This document shows, piece after piece, positions 1 through 35,301 of a stretch of 64,000 nucleotides of DNA. The stretch is taken from positions 1-64,000 of IMG/VR virus record IMGVR_UViG_3300042673_001787. One strand, 5' to 3'. A model generated the notes under the pieces. The model was not told the DNA's origin. It did not search any database and was given only the letters and a program-made list of their open reading frames with translations. This DNA is from a virus. A program made the translations under genes and the position numbers. Each line of letters opens with the position of its first letter. The stretch's first letter is position 1.

Positions 1-2
1 AA

Positions 3-242
3 ACAGTAAACGGAACAGTTGATGTTGGTAATTTCCCAGCTACACAAACAGTAAACGGAACAGTTGATGTTGGTAATTTCCCAGCTACACAAACAGTAAA
101 CGGAACAGTTGATGTTGGTAATTTCCCGGCAACTCAAACTGTAAACGGAACAGTTGATGTTGGTAATTTCCCGGCAACTCAAACTGTAAACGGAACAGTT
201 GATGTTGGTAATTTCCCGGCAACTCAAACTGTAAACGGAACA
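3..242 (+). repeat. 45-bp in-frame tandem repeat
   Basis: Units begin at 3, 48, 93, 138, 183 and 228. The sixth diverges after TVNGTV. The first two full units end in CCAGCTACACAA and the next three in CCGGCAACTCAA, so two sequence subtypes are visible. This suggests unit duplication in blocks. More copies may lie upstream of the window. Confidence 0.95.
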
Positions 243-2725: not shown

Positions 2726-3616
2726 TCACTTTCTTGTTCCAAATTCTATACCGTTTAGGATAAGAATTTGTGCGCCAAAAAATATTTTTTCAAAGTCTCT
2801 GAATTCTAACATTCTAAGCAATGGTTTAAGCTTATCGGCATTTACTTCACCGTACGCAAATTGCGTTACGTCTAAGTCTTCAGGTATGTCCGATGGCCAA
2901 TGCAATGCTACTAGCCTCCTAGCCAATTTAACGTCTTCTATTGAATTAGAAAATTTCTTAGCTAGGCTAGGCTTTAGGGCTCCTATGTTGTTATATATAT
3001 TTTCTAATGTACCAAATGACTGAAGAGCTTGGGCGGCTCCTTTTGGTCCAACTCCAGATACGCCTTTGATATTATCTGCCGTATCGCCAACAATTGCCAG
3101 ATAATCTTGGAATTGATTTGTAGTTATGCCGTACTTCTCTAAGACGGATTGACTCGTGACATATTTATCAGCACCTAAATTATACATAGAAACATTTTCG
3201 CCCAATAAACAATTAAAATCTTTATCGCTGCTTACTATAACAACTTCAAGATTTTGCTTTTGTCCTAATTTAACCATAGCATTAATTACATCATCAGCCT
3301 CAAACCCACGGCTAGACCAACTTGGATATCCCATAGCAGATATTAGTTCAGGTAATAAATCTTTTTGCCATTTGATATCTTCCTCAAGTGGAGGTCTGTT
3401 TGCTTTATAGTTCGGGTCGATGCTTTTTCTGAGCTGGTTGCCGCCCTCTAATGCAAATAGCATATAATCCGGCTTGTGATCTTTTATAATCCCTTGAGAA
3501 ATTTGGATGAATCCGTGCAATCCCTGTACAGGACGACCTTCAGACGTTGTTAATTGAGATCCATAGATACCACGATAGAATAGATTTGAAACATCAAATA
3601 CATAAAACTTTTTCAT
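2726..3616 (-). CDS. 5'-3' exonuclease / flap endonuclease
   Basis: A 296-residue member of the FEN/Pol I N-terminal nuclease family, the type used by phages to remove RNA primers and flaps during replication. Visible motifs: DVSN at the N-terminus (D8), YKANRPP at 70-76, GFEADD at 104-109, SSDKD at 129-133, GDTADN at 177-182 and a helix-hairpin-helix GVSGVGPKGA at 185-194 for DNA backbone binding. The usual 'FDxxGxxxR' segment reads FALEGGNQLR. The metal-binding Asp after Phe is replaced and a Glu (E57) sits two residues later, with one extra residue. The length fits stand-alone phage enzymes. Its ATG overlaps the stop of the gene at 3613 by ATGA, so it is part of the small-gene operon. It is the only clear replication gene in the window. 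Confidence 0.95.
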   Translation of the reverse strand: MKKFYVFDVSNLFYRGIYGSQLTTSEGRPVQGLHGFIQISQGIIKDHKPDYMLFALEGGNQLRKSIDPNYKANRPPLEEDIKWQKDLLPELISAMGYPSWSSRGFEADDVINAMVKLGQKQNLEVVIVSSDKDFNCLLGENVSMYNLGADKYVTSQSVLEKYGITTNQFQDYLAIVGDTADNIKGVSGVGPKGAAQALQSFGTLENIYNNIGALKPSLAKKFSNSIEDVKLARRLVALHWPSDIPEDLDVTQFAYGEVNADKLKPLLRMLEFRDFEKIFFGAQILILNGIEFGTRK

Positions 3617-3810
3617 TTTGAAATTCTGTCCTTAATTACGTCTTTAACTTTATCTTTCATATTATCTTTTAGTTGGTAGGCGAGTTTTTCCCAAATTTCC
3701 ATCCACACATCTCTTGTAAGATCGCCATGCATTTGTGTTGAAAAATAATTATGAAATACTGTCCTCAGCTCATAATCAAATGAAATGGTGTGTTGATCTC
3801 TCTTATTCAT
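3613..3810 (-). CDS. array-family small protein (outlying member 1)
   Basis: 65 residues beginning MNKRDQ, with the M-x-K-R-x-Q start and a charged helical C-terminus (LKDNMKDKVKDVIKDRISK) like the 28-34 kb array proteins. It overlaps both neighbours by ATGA (3810/3807 and 3616/3613), the same junction type as in the array. Position 7 is His rather than Ile/Leu. The spacer between start motif and C-terminal helix is rich in aromatic residues. Sitting directly before a replication nuclease gene, it shows the family is not confined to one site. Function unknown. Confidence 0.75.
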   Translation of the reverse strand: MNKRDQHTISFDYELRTVFHNYFSTQMHGDLTRDVWMEIWEKLAYQLKDNMKDKVKDVIKDRISK

Positions 3811-3980
3811 TTTTGGGGTTTCTCGTATAAGTATGAACGTAGTTTAATTGCAATACTATAGTTTAAATCTTTATAGAGCTTCGTGTACAAATGATTTAAT
3901 AGATCGTATCCGACTTGATCGCCGATTACTAAACTTATTTTACCATTAAGACCAAGACTAATGCGCTCTCTTTTAACCAT
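3807..3980 (-). CDS. array-family small protein (outlying member 2)
   Basis: 57 residues starting MVKRERISLGL. A longer frame begins at 4007, but the ATG at 3980 forms a TAATG stop-start overlap with the upstream gene and places the family start motif at the N-terminus, so I choose it. The C-terminus, LYKDLNYSIAIKLRSYLYE, has the period-4 hydrophobic pattern seen in array members. It overlaps the next gene by ATGA. Confidence 0.7.
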   Translation of the reverse strand: MVKRERISLGLNGKISLVIGDQVGYDLLNHLYTKLYKDLNYSIAIKLRSYLYEKPQK

Positions 3981-23565: not shown

Positions 23566-26500
23566 GTGAGCGTAAAACGTAGACTAAATTTTTTTAGTGG
23601 TGCAAGATTAGATGTTTCTCATGTAAAGAGCATCGAGTCTTCGGTTGCATATGATTTTGATTCTTTTATCCGAGGTATGGTAACTGGTTTAAATAAACCT
23701 TATCTTATCAGAGGATTCAGAATAAAAATTCCTCAAAATGCAATTGCTGCAACTAACCTTGAAATAGAAGTTTCTGATTCAGCAATCTTACATTCAACTG
23801 CATCTGAATCTGGAACAATCTTGACCGTACCTGCTGGAACTGCAAACGATATCTTAGATTCAAGCAATAATAAAGTTATCGGTTCATTCCAATCAGGTGT
23901 TGCGAACTATGTCTCTTTGGATTACAGACGCGTTACAGATACTTCGACTATCGACGCAATGAGCGGATGGTCTGCATCTCAAAAATTAGAATACCAAAGA
24001 AGCACAGCTATCGGTAAAGTATTAGAATACCGTTATATTATTTCTCCAATTGGTTTCAGTACTTATTTACCTCTATACATAGTTTATACTGATGTTAACG
24101 GTAAAGTTTCTTCTATTACAAAAGCAACTCAAAACTTATTTCGTTTAGGTTCTGGTGGAGCTAACCCAGATCCAGCTAATTCTTTCAACTGGGGCAACTT
24201 AACAAATACCCAAACATTAGATGGAAGAAAAGAATGGACTTCAGACGTTGTTGGAGCTAATCCAGTTTCTGTAACTCCTGGTAAAGACGTTCAAGCTTTT
24301 GACTACGGTGATTTTGCTATCAAAAATCTTAAGGATTGGATGGATAGCATCATGACCCGATTAAAAGAGATAACTGGGTCAAACTACTGGTATACAAACT
24401 CTGTTGCAGGTTCTGGTTCACCAACTATTAATAGCGTTTGGTGGGATTCTGTTGGATCAGTTTTAACTGGTTCTGGCGCTATTTCTTACAACTTAGTTTT
24501 AGAGACTACTACTCCAACTGATGGTAACTATCAGTCATCATTCACTGATTCAACTGTTTTATCTGGTGATGCGTATGTTGAGGGTGCTACTTCTGGTGTT
24601 AAAGCTACAGTTACTTCATTTAATAATAACAGCACCTTAATTAACTCATTGACTTCTGCTGGTTTTGTTTATTCAGAGAGCTTAAGATTCAGACGCAAGT
24701 TTAGACCATCTTCTGCTAGCTGGCTTTTAATTGATGAGCCACATAACACAGCTAGACTTGGTACTTTACAAAGAAAATCATCTAGCACTACTGCTGGTAA
24801 TATCAATAGCTGGAGTTATGAGAACGTAACTAACTCTGTATCAGATTTTTCGTTTTCTTTAATTAGTATCAATGTTTCTAACATCGCCAACTTCGCGCCT
24901 GGTCAATTCATTAAAGTTTCTGGCATTTCTGCAGCAGATGATTCAGCTACTGGAACACACAGAATTTTAAAGATCCAAGGCAATGTTTTAACTTATGCTG
25001 TTAATAAACAACAAAGCGGTGTAGCAACTGTAAGCGGTACCAATGGCGTTGATTTAACTGATCAAACAGTTAGACATCCATTTACTTCACCGTTAGAAAT
25101 CACAAATGCTACTATGGATGCAACCCCTGGCTTTGCTGTTTTAACTATTCCAAGAAATACGTTTAAAGCTCCAGTTACAGGTACAACTGTTTTTGTTGGT
25201 GGCGCTAACTATATAGCAGTAACTTCTGGTAATATCTCTTCATTTGAAAACGGTATGAAAATTACTGATGCAAACATCACTGGCGGTTATGCTTACATCT
25301 TAGATATTAATGTTGCTACAAATACTTTATTTATCTCATCTACTATAGTTGCCTTACCATCTGGCACTAGCTTTATTGCTAAACAAGTTGTTTTATTATC
25401 TGACTTAGTAGTTATCGGCGCTCCTAATAGAGAAGCTAGCGGTATTAAAACTATTGAAAGCATTGGGGTAAGTGAAGATATCACAGTTGATCTAGGATAT
25501 CCAGCAATTACACAAATTAATACTGGCGGTTACGCTGAGATAGCTTTCCACAAAGTTATTACAACTGTTACTGGCGCTATTTCAAATACTTACAATACAA
25601 CTAATCAAGCAATTTTCTGTATCGCTGGCGATAAAGCTCAATACACAGTTGGACAAGATAGCGCATTACCTGAATTATTCAGTGCTAGTGGTGATATCTG
25701 TTTTGATACAGTTGTTGCTGAAACTACTGTAGCTAATCCAAATAGAATTGTTTCTATCCAAAAGCTTTCTGCTACTGAAGTTAAAGTAACTACTACTGTT
25801 GATCATGGTTTAGTTTCTAACCCATCAACTACAGTTGTTATTCATGGCGATTCAAATTTATCTCCTTTTATTAAAGCATATAAGCTAGTTACGTTAACTT
25901 ACATTGATGCTACATCATTTAAATTAACTAGCACTACTGAGATCCCAAGCGGAACTGATTTCACTAACACTGGTATCCAAAATGTATTCTTAAATTTCGA
26001 CAATAATCCATACGCAGGTCCGGTTCAATGGACTGGTGACATGGTTGTTAAGTCTGTTGTCGGTGATTTAGCTATCACTATTCCACAAACTGCTACAGTA
26101 GATACTACTGGATCTTCACCTGAAGCTAACAAGTTTAACACAAGTGGCGTAACTGGCACAGCTTTCTTGGAAGATGGCGAAGTTGCTTTTGTTAAGTTAG
26201 AAAGAAATCAACCAATCTCTAATGGTGTTGTTTACAGTACATTGGGCGGAAGTGCTACAATTGCTGGTAACTTCTTAGATATCAGCGGTAATCTATTAGA
26301 AGTAGGAGACTTTGTTAAGTTTGCTAATGAAGAAGATTCTCATTGGTTAAAAATTGGCAGCATCTCAACATCATCTATGATCTTAGTCGGAAACGATGGC
26401 CAAGCACCTAGCACAGTACACAGACCAGCTAACACTGGCGCTATGGTTTATACTAAAGGTGTTTACTCTGACGTTTTTGTTACTAAGCATTATCTAGTTG

Positions 26501-28317
26501 AAAACTCTTCAGATATCTACTGGTTTGCATTACGTAGAGATAACAATAATTCTGCTAAAGTTTACTTCAGATCTTTAGAGATGGAGCCAGGTGAAGTAAG
26601 ACAGGTTAACGATAACCAAGGTTCAAACCACTTAGTTTACACTGGTGCGATGACTGAATCTGCAGTTAATCCAAACTACAGTATTGCAGATGCTAGCGGA
26701 TCTTACATCTATAAATCTCAAGTTGAGGTTATAGCATTAGACGCTAAAACTCAAATGATTACTTTGAGTGCTTCAAACCTTTTAGGTTATCAAACTGGTG
26801 ATAAGCTTGAGTTTATTGACTTAAGTGGAAATCACCATTATTACACAGTTAAATTCCCATTGTCGTCTATTACAGTTATAGTTGATCAAAATATTTCAGC
26901 TTTAAGTGTTAGTGATACTTTGGCTTATTACCAAGTTAATCAGCACATTGAAGACCAAGACAATTTGACTTTGGCACATAGAAAACAGGACAGGAATGTT
27001 GGGAGCATCAATACTGCTCTTAAGAGACCAGTATACGATGAGTCTGTCTATATACAAAAAATGGATTTTACGCCAAATTTTGGCGGAGATATTATACGCT
27101 CAGGCAGTTACATCTACCAAGGTTCAATCGAAAGTCCCACCTCCCTAGCCTGGGTTCTTCACGGAAGTGCCGATGTAACTGAAACAATAGAATCTGCTTC
27201 TATCGTTATGCCGGGCGGTCTACAAGGTAGTAATTCAATTGTCATTAACATAGTTAATGGTACCTTTGCTGATGGTACAAGCATTTACCAAAACGGCAAT
27301 ATGGTAGGAACCGTGAATAACCCAGGTGATGGTCCTTTTGCTGGCGTATCACTTTATGGAGATCCAGCACCACTTGGTGATACTGGAACAGAATTAGTTC
27401 TTCCACCGAATAAACGTACAGAAGTTCTTTCTGCTGGCGGTATCGGTACTTACGGAGCACATTCAGTTTATAAACAAACAACTGAGTTGAGCTTAACTGG
27501 CGAAGAGCTTTTAGTTATTGTTAATGATGGAATCAGAGAAGCTGGTTACGATTACGTTGAAACGTTTGGTGGCCCAAAAGCTAAGATCAGACTTAAGCGT
27601 ACTTTACCACCTAATACTAGACTCCGTTTCAGAGCCATGGCTTCTTATGGATCTGTATTAGCAGCTAAATCTGCTGACATCAGTTTACAAGCGGCTTATA
27701 ATACTGGCGCTGATATTCAAACTTCCCCAGGAAGACCGGTTAATATAACTGCTTCAAACGTAAACGGTGGCGAAACAAGTTTCATTAACAGAGGTTCAAT
27801 TGCAATCGCTGGCGGAACAAGTGCGCTTGGTGGAATATTCAATGAATCTACAGACCAAAGCTTTGTAATCGGTAGAGAAAACAATAAACCAAAAGAAGTT
27901 TGGACTGGTGTAGAGAAACTTAAAACTCATTCATCTCATCCAGACTCAGCGGTAACTAGAAAAACTGCTGCGCAAGTTGTTGTTGGAGCTACTGGTACAA
28001 TCATTAGCGGATCTGAAGTTACTTTATCTGATAACTATTCTTATAGAATTAAAGTTAATGCAGTTGCTAGAAGAAGCGATGGCCCACTCGGTGTTAGTTC
28101 ATTTGCTTTAGAGGGAACTTTCTACAGATCAGGTGGAACGGCTCAAGCTGCTGGAAGCCCTATCTCAAACATCAATGGATATGATGGCGATGGTAGCGAC
28201 TATGCAATTACATTTGCTCTTTCAGGTAATGATGTTGTTGCGGTTGTTTATGGTACTAGTGGTGCGACTATTCAATGGGCAATTTCTGTTGAATATCAAC
28301 CAGTTGGTGTTGCTTAA
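23566..28317 (+). CDS. giant baseplate/fibre-connecting virion protein
   Basis: 1583 residues, GTG start with CGAGG upstream. The N-terminus (VKRRLNFFSGARLDVSHVKSIESSVAYDFDSFIRGMVTGLNKPYLIRGFRI) and the segment FNWGNLTNTQTLDGRKEWTSDV are typical of large baseplate periphery proteins. The central region is beta-rich with an HGL-type module near 740 (VDHGLVSNPSTTVVIHG). The C-terminus (VVVGATGTIISGSEVTLSDNYSYRIKVNAVARRSDG) resembles a fibre end domain. It has its own late motif and is the last plus-strand gene before the minus-strand array. Its stop overlaps the stop end of the last array gene by 4 bases. It may play the gp7/gp10 role of linking wedge and fibres. Confidence 0.7.
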   Translation: MSVKRRLNFFSGARLDVSHVKSIESSVAYDFDSFIRGMVTGLNKPYLIRGFRIKIPQNAIAATNLEIEVSDSAILHSTASESGTILTVPAGTANDILDSSNNKVIGSFQSGVANYVSLDYRRVTDTSTIDAMSGWSASQKLEYQRSTAIGKVLEYRYIISPIGFSTYLPLYIVYTDVNGKVSSITKATQNLFRLGSGGANPDPANSFNWGNLTNTQTLDGRKEWTSDVVGANPVSVTPGKDVQAFDYGDFAIKNLKDWMDSIMTRLKEITGSNYWYTNSVAGSGSPTINSVWWDSVGSVLTGSGAISYNLVLETTTPTDGNYQSSFTDSTVLSGDAYVEGATSGVKATVTSFNNNSTLINSLTSAGFVYSESLRFRRKFRPSSASWLLIDEPHNTARLGTLQRKSSSTTAGNINSWSYENVTNSVSDFSFSLISINVSNIANFAPGQFIKVSGISAADDSATGTHRILKIQGNVLTYAVNKQQSGVATVSGTNGVDLTDQTVRHPFTSPLEITNATMDATPGFAVLTIPRNTFKAPVTGTTVFVGGANYIAVTSGNISSFENGMKITDANITGGYAYILDINVATNTLFISSTIVALPSGTSFIAKQVVLLSDLVVIGAPNREASGIKTIESIGVSEDITVDLGYPAITQINTGGYAEIAFHKVITTVTGAISNTYNTTNQAIFCIAGDKAQYTVGQDSALPELFSASGDICFDTVVAETTVANPNRIVSIQKLSATEVKVTTTVDHGLVSNPSTTVVIHGDSNLSPFIKAYKLVTLTYIDATSFKLTSTTEIPSGTDFTNTGIQNVFLNFDNNPYAGPVQWTGDMVVKSVVGDLAITIPQTATVDTTGSSPEANKFNTSGVTGTAFLEDGEVAFVKLERNQPISNGVVYSTLGGSATIAGNFLDISGNLLEVGDFVKFANEEDSHWLKIGSISTSSMILVGNDGQAPSTVHRPANTGAMVYTKGVYSDVFVTKHYLVENSSDIYWFALRRDNNNSAKVYFRSLEMEPGEVRQVNDNQGSNHLVYTGAMTESAVNPNYSIADASGSYIYKSQVEVIALDAKTQMITLSASNLLGYQTGDKLEFIDLSGNHHYYTVKFPLSSITVIVDQNISALSVSDTLAYYQVNQHIEDQDNLTLAHRKQDRNVGSINTALKRPVYDESVYIQKMDFTPNFGGDIIRSGSYIYQGSIESPTSLAWVLHGSADVTETIESASIVMPGGLQGSNSIVINIVNGTFADGTSIYQNGNMVGTVNNPGDGPFAGVSLYGDPAPLGDTGTELVLPPNKRTEVLSAGGIGTYGAHSVYKQTTELSLTGEELLVIVNDGIREAGYDYVETFGGPKAKIRLKRTLPPNTRLRFRAMASYGSVLAAKSADISLQAAYNTGADIQTSPGRPVNITASNVNGGETSFINRGSIAIAGGTSALGGIFNESTDQSFVIGRENNKPKEVWTGVEKLKTHSSHPDSAVTRKTAAQVVVGATGTIISGSEVTLSDNYSYRIKVNAVARRSDGPLGVSSFALEGTFYRSGGTAQAAGSPISNINGYDGDGSDYAITFALSGNDVVAVVYGTSGATIQWAISVEYQPVGVA

Positions 28318-28508
28318 TTAGAATTGGAGCTTTTCTTTTCATTCATGTGATAGTAAAGCTCTATCTTAAGTGGGTTATGCGTATAGTGCTGAAGCTTATG
28401 GTTTAAGCTGTCTCTTAGCCTATGATACAATATTGGCTCAAGTTGAGAATACAGGCAATCGTGGAACAAAGTCTTAAAATTGTATTGTATCATTTTTCTT
28501 TTAATCAT
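28314..28508 (-). CDS. array member 1 (promoter-distal end)
   Basis: 64 residues, begins MIKRKMIQ. The period-4 part (CLYSQLEPILYHRLRDSLNHKLQHY) sits unusually early and is followed by a polar tail ending NEKKSSNSN. The Gln at position 6 is replaced by Met. Its stop overlaps the convergent stop of the virion gene ending at 28317. Confidence 0.75.
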   Translation of the reverse strand: MIKRKMIQYNFKTLFHDCLYSQLEPILYHRLRDSLNHKLQHYTHNPLKIELYYHMNEKKSSNSN

Positions 28509-28684
28509 TTCATTTCCATTAAATGGGTTTTAACGTGAAGCCTAAGTTGGTGTAACAATTCATCCCTAAGCTTATCTTTTAACTGAGTTTCTACCGCCTC
28601 TTCAACTGAAGACGGAAGTGGCATACCCATTTTAGTAAATACGCGGTTATATTCCTTCAAGAAAATCTGTTTACGTTTCTTCAT
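28505..28684 (-). CDS. array member 2
   Basis: 59 residues from the ATG at 28684 (MKKRKQIF). An in-frame ATG at 28753 would add 23 residues but bury the start motif and overlap the member upstream, so I reject it. The C-terminus (LKDKLRDELLHQLRLHVKTHL) is one of the clearest period-4 patterns. Confidence 0.75.
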   Translation of the reverse strand: MKKRKQIFLKEYNRVFTKMGMPLPSSVEEAVETQLKDKLRDELLHQLRLHVKTHLMEMK

Positions 28685-28860
28685 TTGCAATTGCCCGTAA
28701 TATGCTCCCTGATTTGCTGCCTCATTTCTAGAAAAAATGGAATTAGCATACACATGAGCTTTTGATCTGTTTCAAATATAATTTTGTTAGAAGAAAAATA
28801 TGACGATCTCATTATTATACGAGTATAATCAAATATTTCTATGTTTTCTCTCGACTCCAT
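28681..28860 (-). CDS. array member 3 (hidden, divergent start)
   Basis: 59 residues starting MESRENIEIF. It overlaps the end of member 4 by 32 bases and the start of member 2 by ATGA, filling what looks like a 144-base gap. Arg4 is kept but Lys3 is lost. The C-terminus FLEMRQQIREHITGNCK has the family pattern. The overlap and weaker N-terminus lower confidence. Confidence 0.6.
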   Translation of the reverse strand: MESRENIEIFDYTRIIMRSSYFSSNKIIFETDQKLMCMLIPFFLEMRQQIREHITGNCK

Positions 28861-29074
28861 ATACTTGCGTCCTTAAATGATGTCTTAGTTGATTATTCAT
28901 TTGATCTACTAACCGATCATAAAACTTAATTCTTAACTCACTTCTAAACTCATAATATAACTTATCATCTAACTGACAACCCAAATAATCCACTATCTTA
29001 TTCTCAAGCCTGTCTTCTAAAAGATCTATTAACCGACTCATTGTGTTATCTAGTAACCGATCTCGCTTTTTCAT
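28829..29074 (-). CDS. array member 4
   Basis: 81 residues, one of the two longest. Starts MKKRDRLL. Near-continuous helical sequence with repeated L-x-D-x-L/Y-x-x-[FL] spacing (LIDLLEDRLENKIVDYL, DKLYYEFRSELRIKFYDRL, DQMNNQLRHHLRTQVYG). The extra length comes from two additional turns of the repeating pattern. Confidence 0.8.
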   Translation of the reverse strand: MKKRDRLLDNTMSRLIDLLEDRLENKIVDYLGCQLDDKLYYEFRSELRIKFYDRLVDQMNNQLRHHLRTQVYGVERKHRNI

Positions 29075-29271
29075 TTTGACACTACCAATTCTCTCATGAC
29101 ATAATATATATTATTATATAATTGATCGTATACAATCAAGAAAAGTTCTGGGTATAGGTTAGACCTAATGTCATTGTAAGCATAATAATTAAATTGATTA
29201 CTAAGCTTTACGTAAAAAGGGTCTCTGAGATTCTCATTAATTTGTCTGTCTATCTGTACTCTTTTCCTCAT
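29071..29271 (-). CDS. array member 5
   Basis: 66 residues, MRKRVQID start. Rich in Tyr and Asn (NQFNYYAYNDIRSNLYPELF). C-terminus YDQLYNNIYYVMRELVVSK. Its ATG overlaps the TAA of the upstream member as TAATG. Confidence 0.8.
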   Translation of the reverse strand: MRKRVQIDRQINENLRDPFYVKLSNQFNYYAYNDIRSNLYPELFLIVYDQLYNNIYYVMRELVVSK

Positions 29272-29450
29272 TATTTAACCTTTTGTGTACTTATATAGTA
29301 ATATATAAAATGTAGCAGATCAGCCCTTGCGCTAACATTTCTATAAATACGTGAAAACATTTGATTTCTAAAGTTAGAGCCCAAGCTGACATTCAAAATG
29401 TCTCTTATATTGTCATCCAATGTGTTGTCAATCTGCTCTCTTTTTCTCAT
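29271..29450 (-). CDS. array member 6 (short)
   Basis: 59 residues: MRKREQID start, identical in eight residues to member 18. The middle (NTLDDNIRDILNVSLGS) is helical and the C-terminus IYRNVSARADLLHFIYYYI is more hydrophobic than in most members. Shorter than 60 residues, so easily missed. Confidence 0.75.
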   Translation of the reverse strand: MRKREQIDNTLDDNIRDILNVSLGSNFRNQMFSRIYRNVSARADLLHFIYYYISTQKVK

Positions 29451-29668
29451 TTCAACACCTTTTTCTCTAGATCAGTTAAAACGATGTTTACCAAAGAGCT
29501 GTACTGGCCATCTGATGATAAGTTATAATACTGCAAAGTTAAACTACTGTAAACATAGTCAAATGTCCATTTACCGCACGTGACGCTAATTTGACCATAT
29601 AGCTGATTGTATAAATCATCATAGATAAAAGTATATATATGACTATCAATCTGCTCGCGTTTTATCAC
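29447..29668 (-). CDS. array member 7
   Basis: 73 residues, MIKREQID start, same eight residues as member 9. The sequence after residue 30 (SVTCGKWTFDYVYSSLTLQY) looks more strand-like than helical, which is unusual here. Ends in LEKKVLK. Confidence 0.75.
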   Translation of the reverse strand: MIKREQIDSHIYTFIYDDLYNQLYGQISVTCGKWTFDYVYSSLTLQYYNLSSDGQYSSLVNIVLTDLEKKVLK

Positions 29669-29850
29669 TTTGGTACCTCTGCTCTCAGATAGGCACTTAG
29701 CTGAGTTCTAACATTTTGGTGAACCTCTTTCACGAGAGTTTTTTTTACATGAGCGTATATTAAATGGTGTTGGCCATCTTGTAACTCATTATAATATTTG
29801 AAAGCTAGTTTATCACCTAATTTCATCTCTAAACATTCTCTCTTCTTCAT
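29665..29850 (-). CDS. array member 8
   Basis: 61 residues, MKKRECLE start, with Cys in place of Gln6. C-terminus VHQNVRTQLSAYLRAEVPK keeps the period-4 hydrophobic/Arg pattern. ATGA overlaps on both sides. Confidence 0.75.
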   Translation of the reverse strand: MKKRECLEMKLGDKLAFKYYNELQDGQHHLIYAHVKKTLVKEVHQNVRTQLSAYLRAEVPK

Positions 29851-30044
29851 CTTAATACCCCATTATTTAGATATCTGTACAGCTCAAGACGAAGATTTAT
29901 ATCAAGCTCCGTATATAATTGGTCATCAAGCTCTTCTCTCAAGAAATTTTCAAAAAGCTTATCCAATTGATAATAAATTTGTTCATCAACGTATGCATAT
30001 AATATAATATCTATCTGGCTGTCGATCTGCTCTCTTTTAATCAT
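29847..30044 (-). CDS. array member 9
   Basis: 65 residues, MIKREQIDSQID. A model member: continuous helical potential, strongly acidic middle (DEQIYYQLDKLFENFLREEL) and a C-terminal run of four-residue steps, LYTELDINLRLELYRYL. Confidence 0.8.
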   Translation of the reverse strand: MIKREQIDSQIDIILYAYVDEQIYYQLDKLFENFLREELDDQLYTELDINLRLELYRYLNNGVLR

Positions 30045-30232
30045 TTTAGTTCACTTTGCTTTAACGATTCGATACTGTTGCGAACGTGTTCTCTAAGTTG
30101 ATCCCTAAGTTGTAAATAAATGGGATTATAAATTTCATCAAGCAGCATGTCATATACCCAAGAAGAGGACGGCATGTATACTCTTAGTACGCTGGTATAT
30201 AATCTGTCTGTTAATTGATATCTTTTAGTCAT
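30041..30232 (-). CDS. array member 10
   Basis: 63 residues, MTKRYQLT start. C-terminus YLQLRDQLREHVRNSIESL is the clearest example of the conserved end motif. A Pro/Ser/Trp segment (MPSSSWVYDML) separates the start motif from it. One base separates the stop of member 11 from its ATG. Confidence 0.8.
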   Translation of the reverse strand: MTKRYQLTDRLYTSVLRVYMPSSSWVYDMLLDEIYNPIYLQLRDQLREHVRNSIESLKQSELK

Positions 30233-30233
30233 T

Positions 30234-30428
30234 TTAATTCACTTTACTTATCATATGTATTTCGTCGTAAACCTTGCTTCTAATCTGCCCCCAACTAATT
30301 TCATATAGTTTTTCAGTAAGCCTGTCATGAATTGCGAAGTAAACATTGTTGGGTAATTTTAATTTAGAAAAGCACACTTTGAGTAGTCTACTATGTACTT
30401 TGTCGTTAATCTGCTTACGCTTTATCAT
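30234..30428 (-). CDS. array member 11
   Basis: 64 residues, MIKRKQIN start. The middle (LPNNVYFAIHDRLTEKLYEISWGQIRSKVYDEI) keeps Leu/Ile every third or fourth residue. The end KVN lacks the usual Arg-rich motif. Confidence 0.75.
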   Translation of the reverse strand: MIKRKQINDKVHSRLLKVCFSKLKLPNNVYFAIHDRLTEKLYEISWGQIRSKVYDEIHMISKVN

Positions 30429-30622
30429 GACAAACCCTTAAAATCTCTCACAAAACCTTTAAGATGCCATCTAATTTCACCGTAAAACATATCATAAAGT
30501 GCTGTTCTTGTTGCAGTATTAATTACGTAATAATCATTTGTTGATGATAACTTTGGATACAGTTTATTAAATTCAAAGTATAGCTCATAAAGTTGATAGT
30601 TAATTTGATCACGTTTTTTCAT
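30425..30622 (-). CDS. array member 12
   Basis: 65 residues, MKKRDQIN start. Contains LPKLSSTNDYYVINTATRTALYDMFYGEIRWHL, in which 'DYYVINxAxRxALYD' aligns with 'NVYFAIHDRLTEKLYE' in member 11, so a middle motif [YF]xxI...R...LY[DE] is shared by the pair. Confidence 0.75.
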   Translation of the reverse strand: MKKRDQINYQLYELYFEFNKLYPKLSSTNDYYVINTATRTALYDMFYGEIRWHLKGFVRDFKGLS

Positions 30623-30816
30623 AGTGTTTCCCTTTCAATGCGCCAAATTACTGCCGACATTATAAGATTGACGGAATTGTTTGCGTCAGATTCCTCAAGA
30701 TCATCTAAGAATTTCTTGTATAGCGACCGATCAATTCTCTTATCGAAATAAAAATTAAAAAGATGCTCCTGAATCTTATCAAAAACCATGGAATCAATCT
30801 CAATCCTTTTTTTCAT
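30619..30816 (-). CDS. array member 13
   Basis: 65 residues, MKKRIEID start. More acidic than most (FLDDLEESDANNS). C-terminus VNLIMSAVIWRIERETL has Arg at the usual distance from the end but lacks Gln-Leu steps. Confidence 0.75.
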   Translation of the reverse strand: MKKRIEIDSMVFDKIQEHLFNFYFDKRIDRSLYKKFLDDLEESDANNSVNLIMSAVIWRIERETL

Positions 30817-31004
30817 TTTGTCACCCTCTCATTGAGGTAATAAGCCGTATGCATATACAGTTGGTCTAATAGTTCATTTAAAAGATTGTCGCGCAATCTG
30901 CTAACAATCTGATTACGTACAGGCGTACCTACTTGAATAAGCATTTTGTTTCTAGAAATCTGGTCTATGCTGTTTATAACACTTATTTCTTCGCGCTTTC
31001 TCAT
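30813..31004 (-). CDS. array member 14
   Basis: 63 residues, MRKREEIS start. QIVSRLRDNLLNELLDQLYMH in the second half shows perfect four-residue hydrophobic spacing. Ends LNERVTK. Confidence 0.8.
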   Translation of the reverse strand: MRKREEISVINSIDQISRNKMLIQVGTPVRNQIVSRLRDNLLNELLDQLYMHTAYYLNERVTK

Positions 31005-31171
31005 TTTCCCAACAATTCCTGCAAATTAATAAGATCATACTTGACAGTATTTCCTATGTTTCGCCCAATATGATAAAACAACCACTCATCAAATTGATTT
31101 CTATACAAACACTTTAGTTCATAATCTAAATGCGAAGAAAAATGTCTATATATTTGATCGCGTTGTCTCAT
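31001..31171 (-). CDS. array member 15 (shortest)
   Basis: 56 residues, MRQRDQIY start. The middle has CLYRNQFDEWLFYHIGRNIG, and the C-terminus LINLQELLGK is truncated relative to others. Overlaps both neighbours by ATGA, which supports it as a real gene despite its length. Confidence 0.75.
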   Translation of the reverse strand: MRQRDQIYRHFSSHLDYELKCLYRNQFDEWLFYHIGRNIGNTVKYDLINLQELLGK

Positions 31172-31377
31172 TTTCTAATCCCACTGTTAAATCTAAGGTG
31201 GCAATAAACATTTTTTCTAAGGTGGCAATGCGCCGCAGCAGTGTCATATTCATCAACTAAACTAGAGTTTGCTAAAACCATTTTAAGCTTGAATCTTAAT
31301 TGACCGCTCATGGTGTAAGCCAGTTGTTCCCACAATTTGTCACCAAGATGCCCAGGTATTTGAACTCGTTTTTTCAT
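31168..31377 (-). CDS. array member 16
   Basis: 69 residues, MKKRVQIP start. Carries an insert with AAAHCHLRKNVYCHLRFN, where CHLRxNVYCHLRFN is a short internal duplication of a His-Leu-Arg step. Two Cys and three His in this stretch could bind a metal, though no defined motif is present. Confidence 0.75.
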   Translation of the reverse strand: MKKRVQIPGHLGDKLWEQLAYTMSGQLRFKLKMVLANSSLVDEYDTAAAHCHLRKNVYCHLRFNSGIRK

Positions 31378-31571
31378 TTCGCTTCTTTCTTAATAGTATG
31401 ACAATAAAGTTGATCGAATAACTCCCCACGAACAGGATACCAAATCTGTCTATTTAACTTATCGCCAAGTTCTCCGTTGATTATATCAAAAGTTTCCTCA
31501 TTTGGCAAATCGTTATATTTCTTATAAAATTTAAAATATAAGTTAGTTATCAGTTGTTCTCGTTTCTTCAT
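31374..31571 (-). CDS. array member 17
   Basis: 65 residues, MKKREQLI start. LPNEETFDIINGELGDKLNRQIW aligns with the middle of members 11 and 12. Ends ELFDQLYCHTIKKEAK. Confidence 0.8.
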   Translation of the reverse strand: MKKREQLITNLYFKFYKKYNDLPNEETFDIINGELGDKLNRQIWYPVRGELFDQLYCHTIKKEAK

Positions 31572-31741
31572 CTCAACACCTGTGATTCTAATTGTCTATA
31601 AAGTTCGCCAACTAATTCCCCTTGTAATGCCAGCATTATCTTATAAAAAAATGGCATGCTTACATTGTCCCCAAATGAGTCTTTAAGCACATCTGTAAAT
31701 TGAACAAATAAAATGTTATCAATCTGCTCTCTTTTCCTCAT
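31568..31741 (-). CDS. array member 18 (short)
   Basis: 57 residues, MRKREQID start. Middle VSMPFFYKIMLALQGELVGE, end LYRQLESQVLR. The 8-residue start equals that of member 6, which suggests a fairly recent common origin or conversion of the 5' ends. Confidence 0.75.
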   Translation of the reverse strand: MRKREQIDNILFVQFTDVLKDSFGDNVSMPFFYKIMLALQGELVGELYRQLESQVLR

Positions 31742-31742
31742 C

Positions 31743-31922
31743 TTATGCCCTGTTTTTTAAAGATATTCTGACATTTCTTTCAAGTTGATCCCTAATTTCG
31801 TCCCAAAGAACAACGAAAAGCTTTTCACGAAGCAGCGTATAGACTTTGTACTCTAACTGGCAGTTAAAAGCACTGTCTATTTTAACATATAATCCGTCTT
31901 TGAGTGGGATTCTTTTAACCAT
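31743..31922 (-). CDS. array member 19 (KRIP subtype)
   Basis: 59 residues, MVKRIPLKDG. With member 22 (MIKRIPIS) it forms a subtype in which the E/K-Q of the start motif is I-P. C-terminus WDEIRDQLERNVRISLKNRA is a good family end. Confidence 0.75.
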   Translation of the reverse strand: MVKRIPLKDGLYVKIDSAFNCQLEYKVYTLLREKLFVVLWDEIRDQLERNVRISLKNRA

Positions 31923-32105
31923 TTAGAACAAACCTATAATCAAGTATCGTATTTGATATCCAAGAGTCTGATTTACTAATTTAGAGGTCAGTTGCTCATC
32001 AATTATGCAATTATACTTTAAGTCACTTTTTTTATAAATCTGTGTAATAAATGCTTCTCTGAAAACATTAAATGATATGTCTGCAATTTGTTTTCGCTTT
32101 TTCAT
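31923..32105 (-). CDS. array member 20
   Basis: 60 residues, MKKRKQIADI. Its ATG is embedded in a 33-base segment that is repeated exactly at the start of member 21. C-terminus LVNQTLGYQIRYLIIGLF contains the QxxGYQ-type step seen in member 21's repeat. Confidence 0.75.
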   Translation of the reverse strand: MKKRKQIADISFNVFREAFITQIYKKSDLKYNCIIDEQLTSKLVNQTLGYQIRYLIIGLF

Positions 32106-32121
32106 ATTAATTAACCCTCTT
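32089..32121 (-). repeat. 33-bp direct repeat, copy 1
   Basis: Identical to 32339-32371, 250 bases away. Each copy spans the end of one array gene (RVN-stop) and the first eight codons of the next (MKKRKQ start). It marks a recent tandem duplication or conversion of one gene unit. Confidence 0.9.
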
Positions 32122-32355
32122 GTAAACAGTTTCAGTTTTTCTCAACTGATTCACCAACTGATCCCTCAACTGATACCTCAACTGATACCTCAACTGATTC
32201 TCCAACTGATTCACCAACTGATTCTCCAACTGATACACCAACTGATACACCAACTGATACACCAACTGATACCTCAACTGATTCACCAACTGATTCACCG
32301 ACTCATACCCCAACTGATACCCGAACTGATTCTCCAACTGTTTTCGCTTTTTCAT
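32107..32355 (-). CDS. array member 21, built of a QLxx tetrapeptide repeat
   Basis: 82 residues from the ATG at 32355 (MKKRKQLENQ). Almost the whole body is a four-residue repeat QL-x-x with x-x mostly VN, VY, EN, RY or RD, for example QLRYQLVYQLVYQL. It comes from a 12-base tandem DNA repeat. The repeat unit equals the period-4 pattern at the C-termini of other members, as if that element alone had been amplified. A longer start at 32382 would precede the family motif and is rejected. Confidence 0.8.
   Translation of the reverse strand: MKKRKQLENQFGYQLGYESVNQLVNQLRYQLVYQLVYQLVYQLENQLVNQLENQLRYQLRYQLRDQLVNQLRKTETVYKRVN
32143..32340 (-). repeat. 12-bp tandem repeat inside an array gene
   Basis: Sixteen units of the type CAACTGATNNNN (plus strand) plus a final CAACTG, without any length change between 32143 and 32340. 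Only unit 14 (CGACTCAT) and unit 16 (GAACTGAT) differ in the first eight bases. Variation is concentrated in the last four bases (ACAC, TCTC, TCAC, ACCT), so the encoded QL is kept and the other two residues vary. Confidence 0.95.
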
Positions 32356-32371
32356 ATTAATTAACCCTCTT
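32339..32371 (-). repeat. 33-bp direct repeat, copy 2
   Basis: Exact copy of 32089-32121 at the 5' end of the tetrapeptide-repeat gene. Confidence 0.9.
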
Positions 32372-32536
32372 TTGATAGGCAATAGGCAAAATCAATTCCT
32401 GATATAATTGGTTACTGAGCTTAACACTAAGTTGATTACGAATACGCTTTCGCATTCCATAATAAGGTTGACTATACACCATATCAAAAAGCTTATCGCT
32501 AATCTTTTCACTAGAAATAGGAATTCTTTTTATCAT
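32357..32536 (-). CDS. array member 22 (KRIP subtype)
   Basis: 59 residues, MIKRIPISSEK. Contains an internal GMRKRIRNQL, so a second start-like MRKR lies at residue 28, followed by LSVKLSNQLYQELILPI. This might be a fused or shuffled copy. Ends KRVN, like member 21. Confidence 0.75.
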   Translation of the reverse strand: MIKRIPISSEKISDKLFDMVYSQPYYGMRKRIRNQLSVKLSNQLYQELILPIAYQKRVN

Positions 32537-32537
32537 C

Positions 32538-32747
32538 TTAAATCCCTTCAGTATTTCTTACATGTAATCTCAAATTACACTTAAGCTGTCCATATATCTG
32601 TTCTTTAAGTTCAACACCAATATGGTTTTTAATAAATGGTATCAATACCTTAGTTCTCTCGCTTCCAAGTTGATACCAAAGCTTATCAATCCATTGGCTT
32701 TCGTTCCAAATATAAAACTGCTGGTTAAGTATTTCTCTTCGCCTCAT
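32538..32747 (-). CDS. array member 23
   Basis: 69 residues from the ATG at 32747 (MRRREILNQQ). A start at 32822 would add a hydrophobic N-terminus (YLKWVLLIGLYIAY) and overlap the upstream gene by 98 bases; the family start overlaps by 23. C-terminus ELKEQIYGQLKCNLRLHVRN is a strong family end. Confidence 0.75.
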   Translation of the reverse strand: MRRREILNQQFYIWNESQWIDKLWYQLGSERTKVLIPFIKNHIGVELKEQIYGQLKCNLRLHVRNTEGI

Positions 32748-32937
32748 TTGATGCCTTTTTTGAATCATAGTCTTGTATGCAATGTATAAGCCTATTAATA
32801 ATACCCACTTTAAGTATATCATACATATCAGCGGCTTTAAAGCTGATTCTGCTTGTTAACCCAGCCGTAAGTATATCGCATGGTATGTAATCTACTAACC
32901 TTCTAACCTGAAGGTTGGCCCTCTCCCTCTTCCTCAT
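32725..32937 (-). CDS. array member 24
   Basis: 70 residues, MRKRERAN start. Less typical after residue 10 (LVDYIPCDILTAGLTSRISFKAADMYDIL), and the end (SKKASNEAKRNT) runs into the next gene. The tail may be a degraded extension past a lost stop. Confidence 0.7.
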   Translation of the reverse strand: MRKRERANLQVRRLVDYIPCDILTAGLTSRISFKAADMYDILKVGIINRLIHCIQDYDSKKASNEAKRNT

Positions 32938-33119
32938 TCTTCGCCCTCGATTTCTGATTTAATTAACAATATAATACCGCTACATACAGAATTGTTTGTC
33001 AAAGATGAATCAATATAATGATTTACGCGGCCACTAGAATATAAACGAAATGGTATGTCTTTATTCAACCTCATTCGTGTTCTGAAAAAGAATTTATCTA
33101 ATTGCTTACGTTTCTTCAC
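32934..33119 (-). CDS. array member 25
   Basis: 61 residues, MKKRKQLDKFFF. The body is divergent and strand-like (VNHYIDSSLTNNSVCSGIILLI). It ends EIEGEE, similar to the QREGEE end of the leader gene at 34239, and has no typical family end. Confidence 0.7.
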   Translation of the reverse strand: MKKRKQLDKFFFRTRMRLNKDIPFRLYSSGRVNHYIDSSLTNNSVCSGIILLIKSEIEGEE

Positions 33120-33120
33120 A

Positions 33121-33300
33121 TTAGCTCCAATTAGCTACTATGTTCCTAACTTGTTTATATAATTCCCAATAAATGTCTTCACGTAGTTCGTGGTATATTT
33201 TTTGGTGTAATTTAAAATGCAAATTTGCATCAAGTTGATCGTGGTATTTTTCATAGATTTTTTCATGAAAATTTTTTTCAATAAATTCTCGTTTTCTCAT
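33121..33300 (-). CDS. array member 26
   Basis: 59 residues from the ATG at 33300, which forms an ATGA overlap and starts MRKREFIE. An ATG at 33309 would add MAQ. The body (IYEKYHDQLDANLHFKLHQKIYHELREDIYWELYKQVRN) is one of the best period-4 examples, with many His and Tyr. Confidence 0.8.
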   Translation of the reverse strand: MRKREFIEKNFHEKIYEKYHDQLDANLHFKLHQKIYHELREDIYWELYKQVRNIVANWS

Positions 33301-33479
33301 CTGTGCCATCTTACGAGAGAATTTGCTATATGTCTTCTCAATTCACGCCTAATGCAATTCATCTTGTCGTCTAAAAATATAAAATACAATCTATCGTACA
33401 AACTATCATCTAATCTAGACTTTATGGCTGTATGCATTTTTATATAAAACATGTCGTCCATGTGAATATGTTTCTTCAT
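33297..33479 (-). CDS. array member 27
   Basis: 60 residues, MKKHIHMD, the only member without Arg4 (His instead). The rest is typical: SRLDDSLYDRLYFIFLDDKMN and the end CIRRELRRHIANSLVRWHR, strongly basic. Confidence 0.75.
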   Translation of the reverse strand: MKKHIHMDDMFYIKMHTAIKSRLDDSLYDRLYFIFLDDKMNCIRRELRRHIANSLVRWHR

Positions 33480-33655
33480 TTTGACCTCACATCTTTTAAA
33501 TAGGCATAGAGCTTAATTTTCATTTCTTGGTTAGCCCCTTCGCGAACTATATCCATAAGTCTGTTAAAATAGTCATCTTTTACGACTTTACCTGAATTCT
33601 TAGCAAGAGAGAGCAATAGTCTATGGTATGCATCAATTGAATTTCTTCTTCTCAT
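33476..33655 (-). CDS. array member 28 (short)
   Basis: 59 residues, MRRRNSID start. Middle LLLSLAKNSGKVVKDDYFNRLMDIV, end MKIKLYAYLKDVRSK. ATGA overlaps on both sides. A short frame easily missed by size cut-offs. Confidence 0.75.
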   Translation of the reverse strand: MRRRNSIDAYHRLLLSLAKNSGKVVKDDYFNRLMDIVREGANQEMKIKLYAYLKDVRSK

Positions 33656-33843
33656 TTTAATTCCTCTTGCCTTAAGAAATCGCTTATGTGTCTATACAAG
33701 TGATAGTAAAGGTTATCATCTAAATTGTCGCGAAATTGCCATCTAAGATATGCCCCAAGTTCATCGTCTATGCGCCAAGATAAGGTGCGGTCAACTAATC
33801 GCCAAAAAAATTTAGAATCATCAATCTGGTCTCTTTTCCTCAT
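33652..33843 (-). CDS. array member 29
   Basis: 63 residues, MRKRDQID start. ELGAYLRWQFRDNLDDNLYYHLYRHISDFLRQE shows uninterrupted four-residue hydrophobic steps over more than 30 residues. Tryptophan-rich for its size. Confidence 0.8.
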   Translation of the reverse strand: MRKRDQIDDSKFFWRLVDRTLSWRIDDELGAYLRWQFRDNLDDNLYYHLYRHISDFLRQEELK

Positions 33844-34037
33844 TTAGTGGCCTTAATTTGTCTTATGTGTTTAGTAATTTCTATTTCGATATTAACATGA
33901 AGCAATAGGTAGAGATCAGGTCTAGTGCTGTACCATACTTTGTCCCAAACGTATTCAGTTGTGATCATAGACTGGCTATAAAGCTTATTGTAGAGATACT
34001 TTTTAAGAAAATCACTTAGCTGCCTTCTTTTGACCAT
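33840..34037 (-). CDS. array member 30
   Basis: 65 residues, MVKRRQLSDF. Middle TTEYVWDKVWYSTRPDLYLLL; end HVNIEIEITKHIRQIKATK, in which the period-4 steps are Ile/Val rather than Leu. Four bases separate it from the upstream member. Confidence 0.75.
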   Translation of the reverse strand: MVKRRQLSDFLKKYLYNKLYSQSMITTEYVWDKVWYSTRPDLYLLLHVNIEIEITKHIRQIKATK

Positions 34038-34041
34038 ATAT

Positions 34042-34242
34042 TTACCTTATATTCCGATTCGCAATAAAATATCTTACTTGCTTTTGCAACTCAGCAACAT
34101 CAACAGGTCTGAGTCGATTATCTAACAAGATATCCATAATAGTATATTCTGTAACTTCTTCAGGTTCTTGAATTACATCTAGAATGTACCTTACTTGATA
34201 GAACAAGGCGTTATGTACTTCTGCCTGCTCGCGTTTCCTCAT
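34042..34242 (-). CDS. array member 31 (promoter-proximal)
   Basis: 66 residues, MRKREQAE start. The middle (DVIQEPEEVTEYTIMDILLDN) is acidic. The end VAELQKQVRYFIANRNIR fits the family. Its ATG overlaps the leader gene's stop by ATGA. Confidence 0.8.
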   Translation of the reverse strand: MRKREQAEVHNALFYQVRYILDVIQEPEEVTEYTIMDILLDNRLRPVDVAELQKQVRYFIANRNIR

Positions 34243-34418
34243 TCTTCACCCTCACGCTGCACTTCAACCAATAACACTGGAACTGGATCGAAATAAACGT
34301 CGTTATTATAAATAGTTGCCCAATCTGTCTTTGCTACAGACACCTCTTCTTTGCTCAAGTTTTCGGCAATAACCTTCTTTTCTCTATTTCTAACAACTAA
34401 AAGCTTATATAATTCCAT
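34239..34418 (-). CDS. leader gene of the array operon (not a family member)
   Basis: 59 residues from the ATG at 34418, preceded by GGAAATAATT; an ATG at 34430 would add four residues. The sequence (MELYKLLVVRNREKKVIAENLSKEEVSVAKTDW...VPVLLVEVQREGEE) looks like a small beta-rich fold and lacks the family start. As first gene behind the array promoter it may be a regulator or an unrelated early protein. ATGA coupling to member 31 makes all downstream translation depend on it. Confidence 0.65.
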   Translation of the reverse strand: MELYKLLVVRNREKKVIAENLSKEEVSVAKTDWATIYNNDVYFDPVPVLLVEVQREGEE

Positions 34419-34453
34419 AATTATTTCCATAACTTAATGATGTTAATGCAATT

Positions 34454-34653: not shown

Positions 34654-35301
34654 GTGGCATTACAAAAAATAGACTCATTAGCTTTAGGTCGAGGTTCTTT
34701 AACCGATAACGCGAACGCTGCTATTGTATTTTCTTCAAACAACCTAGTAGATTACTGGGATGTTTCAACTACTTACTCACAATATAATTGCTTAGAATAC
34801 TCTGGAAAGATGTACCGTTCCAAAGTAAATTCAAACGTAGGTCTACAGCCCGATACTAACCCAAACAGTTGGGAAGTATTATATACCGGAACAAAAGATG
34901 GCGATGTAGCTATTGTTATTCAAGGGTCTTCTTCAACTATTTATCAAAGAGCTGCTAACATTTGGACTGGCGTCGGCGAAGTTCCGTTAACAATCACCTT
35001 AGTAGATGGCCAAGCTACGTTAGCAGATGCTTTGGTTTTCGTTGGTTCATCTAAACCATTTGCAAATATCGAATACACATTACAAAGAACTACTGGTAAT
35101 GGCCGTAAAAGAAAAGGCGATTTCAACATATTAAATGACGGCTTTAGCTCCGTTGCTTATGATCATTCCTTTACAGAAATCGGTAACGATGTAAGCGCTT
35201 GGCTCTCTATTGTTATGGAATCTGGAAGCGTTAAATTAAAATATACTTCTGATCTAGAAGGGGTTCCACTCACTCTTAAATATGTTTTAAAAGGATTCTA
35301 A
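34654..35301 (+). CDS. fibre/adhesin protein with carbohydrate-binding-like module
   Basis: 215 residues, GTG start with GAGGAG upstream. Residues about 28-72 (VDYWDVSTTYSQYNCLEYSGKMYRSKVNSNVGLQPDTNPNSWEVLY) resemble a CBM5/12-type fold (W-x-x-x-x-x-Y-x-x-x-x-x-V-x-Y-x-G-x-x-Y-x-...-P-x-x-x-x-x-W). The same module is inserted in the giant wedge protein near residue 1690. The C-terminal half (VPLTITLVDGQATLADALVF...YTLQRTTGNGRKRKGDFNIL...TEIGNDVSAWLSI) looks like a compact beta domain. It is the first gene of the adhesin unit and is TAATG-coupled to the next. Probably a virion surface protein. Confidence 0.65.
   Translation: MALQKIDSLALGRGSLTDNANAAIVFSSNNLVDYWDVSTTYSQYNCLEYSGKMYRSKVNSNVGLQPDTNPNSWEVLYTGTKDGDVAIVIQGSSSTIYQRAANIWTGVGEVPLTITLVDGQATLADALVFVGSSKPFANIEYTLQRTTGNGRKRKGDFNILNDGFSSVAYDHSFTEIGNDVSAWLSIVMESGSVKLKYTSDLEGVPLTLKYVLKGF

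Follow-up and report, generated by a model that had tools for sequence, protein, structure and literature searches.

The closest functional model for the locus described here is the host takeover module of phage SPO1, a 26-gene cluster (PMC6873191). Our locus is an array of 31 tiny, diverged, paralogous genes in a 64,000-nucleotide stretch of viral DNA (the window), which is part of the 65.7-kb virus record IMGVR_UViG_3300042673_001787. The likeness to SPO1 is an analogy between dense phage gene clusters of the panel kind; the SPO1 genes are not known to form one paralogous family, unlike those of the array. Proteins with the Pfam domain DUF6745 (PF20530) resemble the array products in their x-x-Q-L or x-x-S-L tetrads, and one such repeat starts K-R-E-Q-L, but the array proteins have neither the N-terminal nor the C-terminal part of DUF6745 proteins, are free-standing, are 56 to 82 amino acids long and are strongly diverged. 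Canonical coiled coils share with them a regular hydrophobic spacing and a predicted helix, whereas the array proteins have an exact period of 4.0 residues. Finally, single-copy genes from two other phage lineages have the same start signature and tetrads and, in one lineage, the same ATGA coupling, but these consist of near-perfect repeats, are little diverged and occur once per record by profile A3. A preliminary description of this DNA had stated that no related family was known; these single-copy genes and the similar tetrad of DUF6745 proteins contradict that statement. Literature on phage paralog arrays and tetrapeptide repeats contained no description of such an array, judged by title among the matches listed. 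Full-text searches, with coverage mostly outside subscription journals, found no paper for four typical repeat strings and none for the term DUF6745.

The array (array 1) consists of 31 consecutive minus-strand genes running from position 34242 down to 28314 of the window, with products of 56 to 82 residues once four genes had been trimmed to an internal signature ATG. Our recount thus agrees with the earlier one of 31 back-to-back genes with Arg4 in 30. The start signature, M-x-K-R-x-Q-[IL], is carried by nearly all of them: Met1 in 31 of 31, Lys3 in 27, Arg4 in 30, Gln6 in 18, and Ile or Leu at position 7 in 28. The codons of this signature are synonymously mixed, Arg4 being written by five different codons. 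Nineteen of the 30 junctions are 4-base overlaps of the ATGA type, the same number as first reported; six have a spacing of +1 and one each has a spacing of 0, -1, +4, -23 and -32. These overlaps and abutting junctions support the proposal that the genes are read as a coupled unit, and a location inside the virion gene region is also supported. The longest match to the Shine-Dalgarno core upstream of the starts averaged 4.06 bases, compared with 2.94 at 2000 random places in the region, and a match of at least four bases was present at 25 of 31 starts versus 677 of 2000 random places. A pattern describing two successive gene starts matched four times in the window and never in 100 shuffles; together with the tail profiles given below, this rules out chance or unrelated frames. 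The originally described span of 28314 to 34430 holds for the family run up to 34242 but not for the frame at 34239 to 34430, which is a leader gene without the family signature and with no Pfam or PHROG match at an E value of 1.

Two longer contigs of the same phage carry the same array: IMGVR_UViG_3300035666_000004 (G001; 121.8 kb) and IMGVR_UViG_3300044731_001604 (G002; 157.6 kb). Around array 1, G002 is identical to the window over 20,000 of 20,000 bases and G001 over 15,000 of 15,000, and there is therefore no disrupted array-1 frame in these records. In leave-one-out comparisons, a profile was built from 30 array-1 members minus their first ten residues and was scored on the thirty-first against 100 shuffles. 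For 27 of the 31 tails (from residue 11), no more than 5 of the 100 shuffles equalled or exceeded this score, so that relatedness extends well past the first eight residues. A profile of array 1 alone also recovered 14 of the 16 copies lying outside the array in G002 (E 3e-11 to 0.008), and both results bear out the claim of one paralogous family; a profile of all 47 copies recovers 47 in the G002 stretches, as it must by construction. The family is larger than the array reported in the preliminary description. There are 47 copies in several places, 31 in array 1 and 16 outside: two at 3613-3980 of the window and, in G002, three at 69839-70478, seven at 73379-74728 (array 2), three at 75.2-76.2 kb and one at 105120-105311. 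Lys3-Arg4 is present in 39 of the 47. We have little doubt about this anatomy, that is, a 31-gene run and 47 related copies. Nine array proteins and the leader were also compared with Pfam; none passed the cut-off of any model, and the array proteins are not considered DUF6745 members because none of the nine matched PF20530 at an E value of 1. The best candidate for a known Pfam or PHROG family among these ten proteins was Integrase_H2C2 for g06 (E 0.00069), which was rejected as it lies below the cut-off of the model.

Within array 1, adjacent genes exceed random pairs in likeness by a small margin (p 0.026), and mean pairwise likeness (Z) is 1.62 within array 1, 1.75 between arrays and 2.22 within array 2. 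As neighbours barely stand out and cross-array pairs are as alike as pairs within array 1, array 1 is taken to be mostly old. These figures bear on one option raised at the outset, that the copies are a reservoir for recombination, in which they would serve as cassettes supplying variation to an expressed gene. Short similarities shared by start junctions across the array (families D2-D6) and the scattering of copies over several places are what such a reservoir could look like. However, every copy forms an entire gene and has a start of its own, usually preceded by the Shine-Dalgarno match described above; no master copy was seen, the likeness of neighbours is barely above chance, a long exact repeat was found around g11 only, and the three records are identical over array 1. 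For these reasons the reservoir option is disfavoured, and we think it very improbable.

A typical member consists of the start signature and, after it, some twelve x-x-x-[LIVMF] tetrads, with nearly everything else diverged. The tetrad consensus is [Y/R]-[D/N]-[Q/K/E]-L, and the signature is itself the first tetrad. Residues 7, 11, 15 and so on to 55 form a spine that, without any alignment, is hydrophobic far above the other residues and has a period of exactly 4.0 residues. The preliminary description had placed a period-4 pattern in the C-terminal part; the pattern is present, but it runs from residue 7 through the whole protein. Autocorrelation at lag 4 had a z score of 14.4 in the 30 array-1 proteins other than g11 and of 11.2 in the 16 other copies, with increases at lags 4, 8, 12 and 16 and decreases at 7 and 11. 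The power spectrum at 90 degrees had a mean peak of 5.85 versus 1.20 in 505 control pieces of other proteins from the same phage, and 36 of 46 members exceeded the 95% point of the controls, compared with 26 of the 505 control pieces. Individual members range widely. All or nearly all spine positions are filled in g23 (14 of 14), g14 (13 of 13) and b6 of array 2 (13 of 14), versus hydrophobic residues at 6 of 40, 10 of 38 and 4 of 40 positions elsewhere in the same proteins, while in the standard phase g03 and g20 fill 1 and 2 of 14. In g03, g10, g18, g21 and g22, the period is kept in another phase, as if resumed after insertions.

The codons indicate at which level this pattern is maintained. 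Across 360 tetrads from the diverged genes (30 in all), the period resides in the second base of the spine codon (z 44); third bases are aperiodic at the first (z 1.4) and second (z 1.5) tetrad positions and at the spine (z 1.2). Leucine is written by the same six codons in phase and out of phase. As most synonymous sites carry little of the period, the pattern is kept at the protein level, and selection on the tetrads at that level is very likely. An echo of DNA slippage without selection was rejected for the diverged members, since slippage would mark all twelve bases, and was accepted for g11. This gene is the exception in the array: it contains a 12-bp repeat of 16.5 copies and is flanked by exact 33-nucleotide repeats that span the gene end and the next start, and it looks like a young copy produced by slippage. 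Such an origin is also an argument for a near-neutral spread, in which 12-bp slippage and duplication keep producing genes that linger without function. The phage group, moreover, manages without the family, as 21 of 22 records of terminase relatives gave no match at an E value of 0.1 (22 of 52 loci were given, many of them fragments). However, the spine is maintained despite freedom at most synonymous sites, 47 frames are open with the start signature mostly kept, and a family of 9,204 bases, or 5.8% of the 157.6-kb G002 record, is a large load for a phage. We therefore regard near-neutral spread as improbable.

The low contents of glycine (3.0%) and proline (1.3%) are compatible with a helix, and AlphaFold2 predicted two helices for g27 from 33 sequences (predicted local distance difference test [pLDDT], 88.1; predicted template modelling score [pTM], 0.44) and one helix for g11 from a single sequence (pLDDT, 92.5; pTM, 0.46). 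A canonical coiled coil, heptad or hendecad, is ruled out by the depletion of lags 7 and 11 and the absence of a peak at 100 degrees. By reasoning from geometry, a spine with a step of 4.0 would wind round a helix of 3.6 residues per turn, and the proteins may in fact adopt a right-handed bundle that is tightly wound, or a form not seen before. No solved structure was matched by profile A3 at an E value of 1, and the two solved structures matched by the phage DUF6745 protein are at chance level. A Foldseek search with the g27 model found no PDB match at an E value of 10 and two in BFVD (E 6.7 and 7.3).

The phage is, judged from sequence, a distant relative of Myxococcus phage Mx1, with tblastn identities of 32.7% for DnaE and 33.5% for the terminase and a common gene order of terminase, one further gene and portal. 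Mx1 itself gave no family match at an E value of 10. Two relatives (G004 and G005) have homologues of the 1583-residue gene that flanks the array (47% and 46% identity), and between this gene and the 215-residue gene they carry other small genes, mostly opposite to the virion genes as far as listed. The array itself also runs opposite to the virion genes, and as the same site holds other small genes in two relatives, the site of the array can be considered an accessory island. A different set of small paralogs, starting M-K-R-S-E, was seen in G005 (L116, 7197-10709) and G004 (L115, 9861-10088); four of them contain G-M-L-P-P, and the three that were compared had no Pfam or PHROG match at an E value of 0.01. 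In another relative (G007), neither the 9.3 kb up to the record end nor the last 15 kb showed a homologue of the 215-residue gene.

Genes with the same start and tetrads are found beyond this phage. Earlier DNA patterns, when scanned against viral contigs, had returned nothing beyond G001, G002 and false matches, which were rejected on reading, and both matches of the two-gene pattern in genome contigs were also rejected. The last pattern, which combined the start signature and three tetrads, matched 14 stretches in viral contigs: four from this phage, three true single genes from two lineages and seven due to chance. In one lineage, IMGVR_UViG_3300020583_000407 (L144) and IMGVR_UViG_3300050821_007042 (L153) share a gene of 90 residues with 14 of 14 tetrad positions filled; it overlaps by ATGA a preceding 698-residue gene, which looks like one for a DNA polymerase. 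These two records differ at 1 of 4,248 bases, in the second codon of the small gene. The other lineage, IMGVR_UViG_3300044993_000711 (L149), has a gene of 62 residues with 13 of 14 positions filled. Profile A3 at an E value of 1 found one copy in each of these three records of 17 to 23 kb. L149 also has a second, diverged M-K-K-R gene at 12742-12972, which was matched by the profile of all 47 copies (E 3.6e-5) and not by A3 at an E value of 1; this gene is perhaps an early stage of the same diversification. On these comparisons, the 31-gene array is an extreme expansion of a small but wider phage family. A survey of all collected loci found true tetrad runs in this phage, G016, L144/L153, L149 and DUF6745 proteins; a run in a marine virus is better read as a Gly-Asp-rich protein on the other strand. 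A tblastn search of phage records with g11 gave no match with the simple-repeat filter on.

The connection to DUF6745 deserves separate consideration. G016, the only terminase relative that matches the family, has an [x-S-Q-L]n run at the contig end, and the downstream part of this protein matches Pfam DUF6745 (48.6 bits). The DUF6745 proteins of two other phages are composed of an N-terminal part, an [xxSL]n or [xxQL]n repeat and a C-terminal part, and the repeat in Mycobacterium phage prophiGD102-1 opens with G-K-R-E-Q-L-W-G-Q-L. Compared by eye, the three DUF6745-type proteins show x-D-Q-L/x-G-Q-L, x-S-S-L and x-S-Q-L versus [YR][DN][QKE]L in the family, a likeness that common descent and convergence would both give. 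We hold that the array tetrad is apparently of the same type as the DUF6745 repeat; shared descent is a separate and unproven claim. In the DUF6745 gene of the phage itself (G002, 72741-73367), the N- and C-terminal parts are separated by almost no repeat. The seven family genes of array 2 come directly after this gene on the same strand; its stop codon is followed after 11 bases by the first possible ATG and after 23 by the signature ATG. This arrangement raises the possibility that the family is a detached DUF6745 repeat domain that works in trans: its members would form a mixed helical complex or filament, either among themselves or together with the repeat-poor DUF6745 protein. The full-length proteins of the two other phages carry their tetrads at just this place, one with the K-R-E-Q-L start. 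The diverged member b6, searched by tblastn against 50,697 phage records, had its best match in the prophiGD102-1 repeat, although at a weak E value of 0.06, and the single gene of L149 matches the same repeat at 3e-7. On the other hand, the DUF6745-like protein of Ma-LMM01, examined as a protein alone, also has no tetrads, so that a missing repeat is no sure sign of help supplied in trans. Array 1 lies about 32 kb from the DUF6745 gene, inspection by eye (with no Pfam search) of 12.8 kb of L144 and 13.6 kb of L149 showed no such gene around their single genes, and simple repeats can converge. We consider assembly in trans unlikely, though less so than near-neutral spread. In its boldest form, with the DUF6745 repeat domain freed and multiplied into 47 exchangeable subunits that join in trans, either onto a repeat-less DUF6745 core or among themselves, the proposal seems to us improbable. 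If true, the phage would build a combinatorial binder from a box of parts, and the exact 4.0 period would represent an undescribed protein fold.

In G002 (L039, 69839-73367), genes for an AAA_5 ATPase and a DUF2201 protein (VWA-like, metallopeptidase) adjoin the DUF6745 gene, and three family members lie directly after the DUF2201 gene. The AAA_5, DUF2201, DUF6745 and family genes may form one system. DUF6745 was found in 4 of 149 genomes of one bacterial phylum, and no free-standing tetrad gene or clue to function was present near those four genes among the listed frames of at least 60 residues. Other features of the phage were also observed. A 45-bp tandem repeat (5.4 copies, 98% match) occupies window positions 1-245 at the very start of the record; it aligns in several registers on the longer contigs and may explain why the record ends there. 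The virion region includes a gene at 41124-46316 for a protein of 1730 residues with heavily repeated Ala-rich units of 33, 54 and 87 bp, and G002 encodes a chaperonin of the Cpn60/TCP-1 family at 135427-137208 (L046). The features of the window are given in Table 1.

Table 1. Positions of the array genes, associated repeats, outlying copies and flanking genes in the window
Feature	Length (aa)	Remarks	Position	Strand
Leader gene	63	without family signature; 4-base overlap with g01	34239..34430	-
g01	66	tail not told apart from shuffles	34042..34242	-
g02	65		33840..34037	-
g03	63	tetrads in shifted phase	33652..33843	-
g04	59		33476..33655	-
g05	60	sole array-1 member without Arg4 (His4)	33297..33479	-
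g06	59	hydrophobic tetrad positions 12/14	33121..33300	-
g07	61	GTG start	32934..33119	-
g08	70	tail not told apart from shuffles	32725..32937	-
g09	69		32538..32747	-
g10	59	tetrads in shifted phase	32357..32536	-
g11	82	nearly perfect [xxQL]n, from 12-bp tandem repeat	32107..32355	-
g12	60		31923..32105	-
g13	59		31743..31922	-
g14	57	hydrophobic tetrad positions 13/13	31568..31741	-
g15	65		31374..31571	-
g16	69		31168..31377	-
g17	56	tail not told apart from shuffles	31001..31171	-
g18	63	tetrads in shifted phase	30813..31004	-
g19	65	tail not told apart from shuffles	30619..30816	-
g20	65		30425..30622	-
g21	64	mid-protein phase shift	30234..30428	-
g22	63	mid-protein phase shift	30041..30232	-
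g23	65	hydrophobic tetrad positions 14/14	29847..30044	-
g24	61		29665..29850	-
g25	73	GTG start	29447..29668	-
g26	59		29271..29450	-
g27	66	AlphaFold2 model: helices 2-26 and 29-65	29071..29271	-
g28	81		28829..29074	-
g29	59		28681..28860	-
g30	59		28505..28684	-
g31	64	last gene; 3' end overlaps end of opposite-strand 1583-aa gene	28314..28508	-
12-bp tandem repeat		16.5 copies, within g11	32143..32340	.
33-nt exact direct repeat		one side of g11 (gene end, ribosome site, next gene start)	32089..32121	.
33-nt exact direct repeat		other side of g11	32339..32371	.
Outlying family member	57	length from signature ATG	3807..3980	-
Outlying family member	65		3613..3810	-
Flanking virion-region gene	1583	homologues in relatives	23566..28317	+
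Flanking gene	215	present beyond island in 2 relatives	34654..35301	+

Our best overall explanation is that the array encodes diversified, free-standing tetrapeptide-repeat proteins, held in an accessory island as a binding panel; we favour this explanation tentatively, at a little under an even chance. The function itself, a panel whose modules bind factors of the host or of rivals, is slightly more doubtful. New copies would arise through 12-bp slippage that yields x-x-Q-L repeats, g11 being the fresh one, and would then be copied between start signatures and later diverge. Their products would be short proteins, probably folded into helical rods or hairpins in which the hydrophobic spine is constant and the surface varies, and those of the array would be made together, perhaps early. 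Each binding module could then be fitted to a different partner, serving host takeover or counter-defence.

Several observations do not sit easily with this explanation. The tails of 4 of the 31 array proteins (g01, g08, g17 and g19) were not told apart from shuffles, and 3 of the 47 copies are without Lys-Arg-like residues at positions 3 and 4. Reversed proteins gave five weak profile matches (E 0.00017-0.0074) because a period of four reads much alike backwards, and part of the profile score must therefore represent periodicity and not ancestry. The phase is ambiguous in several members (g04, g08, g29 and b7). The third base of the Q-position codon is somewhat periodic (z 5.0), as expected from a mixture of Gln, Lys and Glu. 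A period of 4.0 misfits the face of an ordinary alpha-helix (100 degrees), and the helical models, with their pTM values of 0.44 and 0.46, may be wrong. Neither promoter-like sites (35 versus 31.3) nor terminator-like sites (3 versus 2.7) are in excess. PADLOC gave no match at an E value of 0.01 for the three array proteins and the leader submitted to it; weak PADLOC matches of the DUF2201 protein (E 0.00044) and of the G016 repeat (E 0.0019) were taken for chance.

In summary, space is scarce in phage genomes, yet 5.8% of this 157.6-kb record is given over to a single family of tiny proteins in which a strict 4.0-residue pattern is kept and almost all the rest has changed. The family offers 47 naturally diverged variants of a single minimal repeat and a case in which gene birth by 12-bp slippage can be put to the test. 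It may also give access to the tetrapeptide repeat found in DUF6745 proteins.

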